A stretch of DNA of 46,480 nucleotides from Candidatus Saccharimonadota bacterium (GTDB lineage: Bacteria; Patescibacteriota; Saccharimonadia; Saccharimonadales; UBA4665), in assembly GCA_027327085.1 (NCBI GenBank), contig DAHWAT010000003.1:1-46480 (forward strand). Direction: 5' to 3'. Both the position numbers and the translations under genes were made by a program. Under the pieces are notes generated by a model that searched no databases, was not told the DNA's origin, and saw nothing but the letters and a program-made list of their open reading frames with translations. Shown here piece by piece: positions 35,598 through 43,021 of the stretch (position 1 is its first letter; each line of letters starts with the position of its first letter).

Positions 35598-35993
35598 ATG
35601 GATCAGACTAACCAGACTCAACATAAACGCATACTCTTAGTTGAAGACGATAATGCCCTGGCTAGTGTTTATGAGGAAAGACTAAAAAATGAAGGTTTTG
35701 GCGTTAGACGAGTTAATAATGGCGAAGATGCCTTGTCGGTTGCTTTAAGTTATCATCCGGACCTTGTACTACTTGATGTGATGATGCCAAAAGTTGATGG
35801 CTTTGATGTTTTAGATATCCTGAGGAATACTCCGGGAACCGCCAATTTAAAAATTATTATGATTACGGCTTTAAGCCAACAGAGCGATAAAGATAGGGCA
35901 ATGGCTTTACACGCCGATGACTATTTGGTCAAATCCCAAGTTGTGATTGCCGATGTTATCAATCGAGTACGTTATCACCTGGGCTTACAATAA
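35598..35993 (+). CDS. Stand-alone response-regulator receiver (REC-only) protein with intact phospho-acceptor
   Basis: ILLVEDDNALASVYEERL...HPDLVLLDVMMPKVDGFDVL...MITAL...DDYLVKS. Confidence 0.9.
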   Translation: MDQTNQTQHKRILLVEDDNALASVYEERLKNEGFGVRRVNNGEDALSVALSYHPDLVLLDVMMPKVDGFDVLDILRNTPGTANLKIIMITALSQQSDKDRAMALHADDYLVKSQVVIADVINRVRYHLGLQ

Positions 35994-40498: not shown

Positions 40499-41155
40499 AT
40501 GATTAAGCATAATCAGTCTGGTGCGGTAAGTAGCTTGATTATAATAATGACATTATCTGTTATTTTAGTCTTTGCCATCATTTTTGGCGTTAGTGAATAT
40601 TCCGGTAAACAACATTATAAAAACGATGATCAACAACTTATTAATACAGCCGTAACCAAAGCCGTTAATCAACAAATTACGATACAAGATGCTAAGTTTG
40701 CTCAGACAGAGCAATACCCACTAAACACCTATAATGGGCCACAGGAGTATGGCAGTATAGCGCTTAAGTATCCTAAGACTTGGAGTGGCTATATAGATAC
40801 CAGCGGCGATAATAATAGTCTTTTATCGCTTTATTTTAATCCCGGCCTGGTGCCATCTCTAGCTAACCAGTCGGCGGTTTATGCCTTGACGGTTCAAGTT
40901 GTTAATCAGACATATTCTCAAACGATCCAAGCTTTTCAGCAACAAAGCGGGATTACAACTGTTGCTTATGCGTTACCTAAGGTTAGTAAAGTGGTAGGAG
41001 TAGAGGTTAGCGGTCCAATCAGTCAGAATCAAACCAATGAAACCATGGTTGTTTTACCTCTTAGAACTAACACATTAGAGATTGCAACAGATGGCACAGC
41101 CAATTTAGCTGCTTTCAATAATATAATCTTGCCTAATTTAAGCTTTTCACCCTAA
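40499..41155 (+). CDS. Hypothetical single-pass extracytoplasmic protein
   Basis: QSGAVSSLIIIMTLSVILVFAIIFGV TM, then an extracytoplasmic-type domain; TAAGAT 40487-40492 six nt before ATG. Confidence 0.65.
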   Translation: MIKHNQSGAVSSLIIIMTLSVILVFAIIFGVSEYSGKQHYKNDDQQLINTAVTKAVNQQITIQDAKFAQTEQYPLNTYNGPQEYGSIALKYPKTWSGYIDTSGDNNSLLSLYFNPGLVPSLANQSAVYALTVQVVNQTYSQTIQAFQQQSGITTVAYALPKVSKVVGVEVSGPISQNQTNETMVVLPLRTNTLEIATDGTANLAAFNNIILPNLSFSP

Positions 41156-41217: not shown

Positions 41218-41937
41218 ATGGGTATTCAACAACAAAAAGCAAAACAGATGTCGTATGGTCTATTCTTAAGTGTTGCTGAAGAACTAAAATTACCTTTTTT
41301 GCAGATCGCTCGGTTAGCTGAAGCTAGTCAGTCTTTAGCGACAGACCCAGCTTATAAAGATATTGAGTCGACAGCTCAATCGGCTTTAAGACTGGTCGAT
41401 AATTATATACTAGGCCTTCGTTTAAACCTGATGCCCCAAACAATATCTCTTGAAAACGTATCAGTATCCTCGGTACTATATAACACCCAACAACAACTTG
41501 ATAGTTTCGCTAAAACTTACGACGTAAGCTTAGATTTAGTGGTGGCTGGTAAATTTGGCCCAGTCGTTGCCAATGAGCAGGCACTACAGGCAGCTTTGGT
41601 GAGCCTTGGTGCTGCTTTAATAGAGGCTTTGCCGTCTATTAATAGCGGTCAATTAAAGCTGCAGCTAGCCACTCACCGCAGCCGTTATGGCATAGTCGCC
41701 GGTATCTATGCTGATACCAGACAAATTAGTCAGACCACCCTTAAGGCTGGCCACAAGTTAGCCTCGATTAGCAGGCAGCCTTTAGTCGACCTTAGCCATA
41801 CCAGCGGTGCAGGCGTTTTTGTAGCTAGTTCCATCCTTGAAGCAATGGATCTGAAATTGGGTTTTAGCCGTCATAATAATTGGTATGGTCTGGCAACTAT
41901 ACTGCAGCCCAGCCGACAACTTCAGCTAGTGCCATGA
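41218..41937 (+). CDS. Degenerate histidine-kinase-like protein (H-box His replaced by Glu)
   Basis: SVAEELKLPFLQIARLAEA aligns with SHELRTPL-type H-box; C-terminal HTSGAGVFVASSILEAMDLKLGF resembles G2-box; N-box degenerate. Confidence 0.65.
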   Translation: MGIQQQKAKQMSYGLFLSVAEELKLPFLQIARLAEASQSLATDPAYKDIESTAQSALRLVDNYILGLRLNLMPQTISLENVSVSSVLYNTQQQLDSFAKTYDVSLDLVVAGKFGPVVANEQALQAALVSLGAALIEALPSINSGQLKLQLATHRSRYGIVAGIYADTRQISQTTLKAGHKLASISRQPLVDLSHTSGAGVFVASSILEAMDLKLGFSRHNNWYGLATILQPSRQLQLVP

Positions 41938-42317
41938 AGATACTACTAGTTGAGCCTGATAGGCTTTTAGCTAAAGTTTATAGACAGGCTTTAGAGTCAA
42001 AGGGCCATCATCTAGTTAGCGCATCTACTGCCCAAGAGGGGATTGCTAAGGTCGATGAGTTTAAACCAGATTTAATAATTCTTGAGATACAGCTTGTTGA
42101 ACATTCTGGCGTAGAGTTCATGCATGAACTTCGGTCTTATGAGGATTGGCTTGATATACCGGTCATCATTAACTCTATTGTTCCGCCTGCGGAATTTAAT
42201 CATAGCTTTAAAATATTAAAGCATGAACTTAAAGTGTCAGATTATCTTTATAAACCGGATTGTTCACTTAAAACACTGCTAGCTAAAGTTAGTAATTTTG
42301 ATCCAGTCTTAAAGTGA
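41934..42317 (+). CDS. Degenerate receiver-domain protein (phospho-Asp replaced by Glu)
   Basis: MKILLVEPDRLLAKVYRQALESKGHHLVSASTAQEGIAKVDEFKPDLIILEIQLVEHSGVEFM...VSDYLYKPD; ATG 41934 overlaps the upstream TGA. Confidence 0.8.
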   Translation: MKILLVEPDRLLAKVYRQALESKGHHLVSASTAQEGIAKVDEFKPDLIILEIQLVEHSGVEFMHELRSYEDWLDIPVIINSIVPPAEFNHSFKILKHELKVSDYLYKPDCSLKTLLAKVSNFDPVLK

Positions 42318-43021
42318 AAACGATTAACAGCCAAGGTATTATCTTAAGCCGAACGAATTATGCCGAGGCTGATAGAATTTTAACCATTTTGACGCCTAAA
42401 TATGGCAAGTTACGCCTGATAGCTAAAGGGGTACGTAAGGTAAAGTCAAAACTAGCTGGTGGGATTGAGCTGTTTAGTGTCAGCGAAATTAGCTATATCA
42501 ATGGTAAGCGGGAAATTGGCACCTTAGTATCGGCAAGACTCAAAACCAATTATGCGACTATAGTTAGGGATATCGAAAGGGTTCAACTTGGTTATGAGTT
42601 GATGCGCATGCTTAATCGAGTTACTGAAGATCATCCTGAGGAACTCTATTTTAATATCCTAAACAGTAGCTTTATGGCTCTTAATGACCAGGAGATCAGT
42701 CAACAGCTTATCTATTTATGGTTTATGGCGCAGTTACTTAAGGCTAACGGTCATAGCCCAAATTTATTATCTGACAGCAGTGGCCAAAAATTGATCGAAA
42801 CTGGCTACTATAGCTTTGACTTCGATAGAATGAATTTTAACGCTCAAATAGATGGCATTTATAATGCTAGACACATCAAGTTACTGCGTCTTTTATTTGG
42901 CGATTATGATATTCAAAAAATTAATAACATTAACAATGTTGAACAGTATACTGCCGAGCTTAAAGAACTAATGCTAGCAATGAGCCGAGATCACTTGCCT
43001 CAACTTAATAATCTTAGATAA
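42314..43021 (+). CDS. recO: DNA repair protein RecO
   Basis: MKTINSQGIILSRTNYAEADRILTILTPKYGKLRLIAKGVRKVKSKLAGGIELFS; GTGA overlap with upstream gene. Confidence 0.92.
   Translation: MKTINSQGIILSRTNYAEADRILTILTPKYGKLRLIAKGVRKVKSKLAGGIELFSVSEISYINGKREIGTLVSARLKTNYATIVRDIERVQLGYELMRMLNRVTEDHPEELYFNILNSSFMALNDQEISQQLIYLWFMAQLLKANGHSPNLLSDSSGQKLIETGYYSFDFDRMNFNAQIDGIYNARHIKLLRLLFGDYDIQKINNINNVEQYTAELKELMLAMSRDHLPQLNNLR

Follow-up and report, generated by a model that had tools for sequence, protein, structure and literature searches.

The window is a stretch of 46,480 nucleotides from a Candidatus Saccharimonadota genome (contig DAHWAT010000003.1, forward strand). Within it, genes for a pseudo-histidine kinase and a pseudo-receiver lie between a gene for a membrane-anchored protein and recO. 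The genes, with the codons and overlaps considered below, are as follows:

40499-41155, + strand: conserved membrane-anchored protein, family unassigned, upstream neighbour of the kinase gene
41218-41937, + strand: pseudo-histidine kinase gene, 239 amino acids
41278-41280, + strand: codon for Glu21, at the phospho-His position (motif AEELKLPF)
41611-41616, + strand: codons for Ala132-Ala133, where the N-box Asp-Asn is lost
41710-41712, + strand: codon for Ala165, where the G1-box Asp is lost
41934-41937, + strand: ATGA overlap of the kinase stop and receiver start
41934-42317, + strand: pseudo-receiver gene, 127 amino acids, single domain
41955-41957, + strand: codon for Pro8, replacing a metal-binding acidic residue (DD2)
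42084-42086, + strand: codon for Glu51, at the phospho-Asp position (motif DLIILEIQL)
42174-42176, + strand: codon for Ser81, the conserved Ser/Thr switch residue, kept
42252-42254, + strand: codon for Lys107, the conserved Lys, kept
42314-42317, + strand: GTGA overlap of the receiver gene and recO
42314-43021, + strand: recO (TIGR00613, 95 bits, over the cut-off)

Translation of the reading frames bore out the features from which the original prediction had started: Glu in place of the phospho-His and of the acceptor Asp, a Pro in the acidic pocket of the receiver (VEPD), a retained Lys (LYKPD), and four-base overlaps of the receiver gene with the kinase gene and with recO. The protein encoded at 40499-41155 matched no family over its curated cut-off in Pfam and NCBIfam searches.

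On its own, the kinase sequence gave no Pfam family at E values up to 1 and no convincing match among NCBIfam families or PDB sequences. Pfam identifies the orthologues at the same place in four genomes from other families (G049, G037, G057, and G059) as plain HisKA-HATPase kinases, and they carry AHELKTPL-like H-boxes and LLDNAIKY-like N-boxes. Profile-profile alignment of 46 Glu-type sequences with these four intact orthologues gave a probability of 99.8% (E = 1.7e-28) over 229 columns, and the Glu-type profile alone, searched against the PDB, matched CpxA (8e-6) and DivL (4e-4). An AlphaFold2 model of the kinase (pLDDT 90.9, pTM 0.88) matched ZraS, GacS, HK853, CpxA, RetS, and DivL over its full length in Foldseek, with a probability of 1.00; the DivL matches from the profile and fold searches include PDB entry 4q20. 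Because the profile alignment, the model and the Foldseek matches agree, the product of 41218-41937, at first labelled only kinase-like, is a degenerate soluble histidine kinase without a sensor domain, related to active kinases by both fold and descent.

This protein consists of a DHp (HisKA) helical hairpin followed by a degenerate HATPase_c domain, with no sensor or membrane domain. The Asn and Asp that bind ATP in active HisKA kinases are absent, their positions being occupied by Ala133 and Ala165. With kinase homology, the loss of catalytic residues and, as described below, retention under selection, it is a pseudo-histidine kinase.

The receiver scores 49.4 bits with PF00072 (cut-off 30.2), its AlphaFold model has a pLDDT of 95.8, and it is REC-only, as had been proposed. 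Since the acceptor Asp and one acidic metal-site residue are gone (Glu51 and Pro8), it does not qualify as a phosphorylatable receiver; as a REC homologue with no acceptor Asp, it belongs among the pseudo-receivers, or aspartate-less receivers. Both sequence and fold searches with the receiver found PDB entry 2jb9, whose title describes PhoB as a "constitutively-active double mutant D10A and D53E". The second exchange in the receiver, Pro for the metal-site Asp, falls on the other residue altered in this mutant, which favors reading the Asp-to-Glu exchange as an "on" state.

Both Glu residues are conserved in related genomes. Glu51 is invariant in 48 of 48 receiver sequences, and at least 90% of 46 orthologues retain Glu21, at a mean column identity of about 50%, which excludes chance for either residue. 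The receiver also contains a conserved patch made up of His57, Gly59, Glu61, Arg67-Ser68-Tyr69, and Trp72.

We compared 159 distinct kinase-receiver pairs, in all of which the receiver gene adjoins the kinase gene. The phospho-His column contains His in 33 kinases, and the partner receiver has Asp in 33 of 33. Among the His-less kinases (n = 124), 97 have Glu and the others Asp, Gln, Tyr, Asn, Lys, or singletons. One receiver in this group lies at a contig end with the acceptor position unread; the other 123 have Glu (111), Asp (9), Ser (2), or Asn (1). The remaining catalytic residues divide in the same way. The N-box Asn is present in 32 of 33 kinases with His and 2 of 124 without, the G1 Asp in 30 of 33 and 3 of 124, and the metal-site Asp of the receiver in 32 of 33 and 1 of 124, with Pro in 108 of the latter group. 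The receiver Lys (33/33 and 118/124), the Ser/Thr switch residue (33/33 and 122/124), and the first acidic residue are kept in both groups. The arrangement would allow a four-base overlap of the kinase and receiver genes in just 30 of the 124 His-less pairs, and of the receiver gene and recO in 71 of 120.

We found no pair in which His stands beside a receiver with a residue other than Asp, and the pattern therefore fits loss in the kinase first, or joint loss. One family (f181, L133-L140), which falls inside the His-less group, combines His-less kinases with receivers that mostly keep Asp, although their metal-site Asp is gone; this Asp was either kept, as an intermediate state, or regained by reversion. 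Glu in the receiver is thus not obligatory beside a His-less kinase. In addition, one pair in the window's own family (L171, G483) has Asp at the His position and Ser at the Asp position, and one pair in an otherwise mostly intact family (L070, G414, f26) has Gln and Ser at these positions.

Relatives that keep His and Asp, which the original prediction had said would count against it, do exist, but only in other families, and there both residues are intact together. For this reason we regard them as the ancestral state rather than as a refutation. Other families of the order have an intact His/Asp pair at this locus, as does a class-level outgroup, and loss in the kinase is accompanied by loss in the receiver; these observations support the proposed conversion of a genuine two-component system.

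We built a tree from the flanking genes only, recO and the membrane protein (112 rows, rooted on the His/Asp outgroup). The His/Asp lineages (f15, f25, f23, f172, f26, f27, and f3) fall outside a group of 78 His-less rows, as does the long-branched family f13; the branch that defines this group has a low support of 33. The minimum number of changes on the tree is four for His and five for Asp, with a further paired loss in G414, within f26 (Gln/Ser). A phylogenetic sign test of coupling between the two losses was not significant, with only three supported independent pairs, and because the independent events are few we claim no statistical proof of coupling beyond the pattern itself. The state table divides the receivers of His-less pairs into 9 with Asp and 114 with other residues, but its rows are related rather than independent, and we therefore set aside a Fisher test on it. 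In mean-field direct coupling analysis of 159 pairs, and of 126 His-less ones, the top-ranked couplings were not enriched at the known interface between kinase and receiver: two of the top 25 pairs fell in the interface region, compared to 0.7 expected (p = 0.5), a result that does not itself argue against binding.

Could the pair simply be decaying under relaxed selection, or could a misalignment hide an intact phospho-site elsewhere? The failure of the kinase alone to score with any Pfam family would suit such an explanation, as would a still more eroded pair in family f180 (G440, L164:1706-2817). There, Pfam does not recognise the receiver, which has lost its Lys; by our reading, Ser replaces His and Glu apparently replaces Asp, while the kinase-receiver-recO order is kept. 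However, the frames of the pair are intact across 27 families. Pairwise dN/dS, from a few close pairs and with several estimates saturated or failed, was 0.03-0.18 for the pseudo-kinase, indicating that the pair is not decaying; by the same method, also with few close pairs, it was 0.07-0.16 for the pseudo-receiver and about 0.10 for recO. Moreover, 16 columns of the kinase and seven of the receiver are under tighter constraint in the His-less sequences, while 12 kinase columns, ATP-site columns among them, have lost constraint. Pro8 and Glu51 are the only receiver columns in which both groups are at least 85% conserved for different residues. The low dN/dS and the gained conserved sites argue that function is retained. 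As for misalignment, the SHELRTPL-like motif and the fold both fix the phospho-His column. The other HisKA domains found in the window's genome all retain His, and its eight other receivers all retain Asp, arguing against general decay. Together with the constancy of Glu51, these observations lead us to reject decay and false alignment, which we consider highly improbable.

The gene order xseA-xseB-(methyltransferase)-membrane protein-kinase-receiver-recO is kept across this order of Saccharibacteria and in the class-level outgroup (G151), often with glyS next after recO. In agreement with the linkages noted originally, recO lies directly downstream of the pair in 154 of 159 cases and the membrane protein upstream in 145 of 159; at one locus (L071, G298) two tandem membrane-protein matches precede the kinase gene. 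Of 60 relatives, 57 carry the kinase family, almost all with a single copy, and in a phylum-wide sample of 380 genomes the family was essentially limited to this order and one class-level relative.

The pair was not found in four genomes, G032, G025 (59% completeness), G054, and G450, and recO was likewise undetected in these four. The loss of RecO in some Saccharibacteria may merit study in itself. The shared absence fits a unit and fits equally well the loss of one block of neighbouring genes. One explanation that draws on it is that the pair acts on RecO or the repair operon by direct protein contact, as a repair accessory rather than a signalling device. The position of recO directly downstream of nearly all pairs and the possible four-base overlap in many His-less ones point the same way. 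Yet loss of one neighbouring block would explain the joint absence just as well, and since the same genes flank the intact His/Asp versions, the location is older than the conversion. We consider this explanation unlikely.

A second alternative takes DivL as its model. Here, the pseudo-kinase would bind a receiver phosphorylated by another kinase and relay its state, and the Glu receiver would be a competitor or a second subunit. DivL is itself a pseudo-kinase that reads a receiver (PMC4211667), and both the profile and the model of our pseudo-kinase match DivL (4q20). There is also a candidate partner: an intact stand-alone receiver (35598-35993; VEDD, LLDVMMP) follows pyrG about 5.6 kb upstream of the pair, and a receiver match lies at a similar place, about 6-8 kb upstream, at four other loci (L059, L060, L061, and L063). 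Set against this is the dedicated partner that adjoins the kinase gene in every one of the 159 pairs and has changed along with it. This possibility, too, appears improbable to us.

We favor the interpretation that the pair descends from an ancestral two-component system and no longer depends on phosphorylation, with the receiver locked on and the pseudo-kinase acting in a scaffold-like manner, and give it a probability of roughly 60%. As judged from their sequences, both proteins lack the residues required for phosphotransfer and both are maintained. The ancestor of these Saccharibacteria would have carried a canonical pair upstream of recO, consisting of a soluble histidine kinase without a sensor domain and a single-domain receiver, and the conversion would have taken place along the lineage from which most of the order's families descend. 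In the converted pair, Glu51, held by Lys107 and Ser81, the residues whose role is to read the phosphoryl group, may keep the receiver in an active-like state, and the pseudo-kinase, no longer an enzyme, may serve as its binding partner or scaffold. The conserved patch from His57 to Trp72 may be the output surface, possibly directed towards RecO or the upstream membrane protein, a role suggested by gene order only.

What is known of other systems bears on two of these steps. Glu at the acceptor position can mimic the phosphorylated state in many, although not all, receivers, and for some pseudo-receivers the hypothesis of a receiver locked on by Glu has been disproved (PMC12632262). According to the titles of PDB entries 6rh7 and 6rh8, HK853 H260A and RR468 D53A still crystallise as a complex; kinase-receiver binding is therefore possible without either acceptor residue, and the pseudo-kinase and pseudo-receiver may likewise form a complex. 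A bolder version would have the whole module, enzyme and substrate alike, converted together into a constitutively "on" complex. In most Saccharibacteria this complex would now be a structural subunit with a role in RecO-linked repair or in the envelope, whereas the sister families would have kept the phosphorylated form of the module in use. This version is speculative, and we doubt it in this full form.

Saccharibacteria are tiny parasitic bacteria. The pair is a conserved, unannotated component of these ultra-small epibionts, and, with both proteins strongly preserved, a natural test case for how "dead" switches work. Because sister families carry intact versions at the same chromosomal place, the pair offers a direct way to ask what is left of a two-component system's function once phosphotransfer is gone, and whether receivers in nature can become locked on through the Asp-to-Glu change combined with metal-site loss. 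In the open-access literature we found no description of this locus or of a cognate pair in which both chemistries are lost and which is kept over much of an order, and the main text of the Southlakia Tn-seq paper (PMC10633639) contains no terms for two-component proteins.

Compared to the HisKA/HATPase_c kinases HK853, CpxA, and ZraS, the window's kinase has the same two-domain DHp-CA fold over its full length and shares descent with the intact kinases at this locus, but it lacks the phospho-His, the N-box Asn, the G1 Asp, and a sensor domain. In Caulobacter DivL, a Tyr substitutes for the phospho-His. DivL thus likewise combines a kinase fold with a substituted phospho-His, and it acts on a single-domain receiver (PMC4211667); however, DivL reads the phosphorylatable DivK, whereas the receiver adjacent to our pseudo-kinase is, by its residues, non-phosphorylatable. 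Aspartate-less receivers and pseudo-receivers share the REC fold without the acceptor Asp (PMC4395418, PMC12632262), and Glu is their commonest acceptor replacement (PMC12632262). Such sites are missing from about 0.9% of HisKA and 2.0% of sampled receiver domains, and the on/off switching of bacterial pseudo-receivers has been called a mystery (PMC12632262). In contrast to other pseudo-receivers, this one has a cognate kinase at the same locus that is itself without His and ATP site, and this holds in a large part of the order. The laboratory mutant PhoB D10A/D53E (2jb9), in which the acceptor has likewise become Glu, carries its changes at the two receiver positions altered here, but the window's receiver is natural, has Pro rather than Ala at the metal site, and lacks a DNA-binding output domain. 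Pseudo-kinases such as DivL and pseudo-receivers were already known; what is new is a cognate pair in which both have been converted together.
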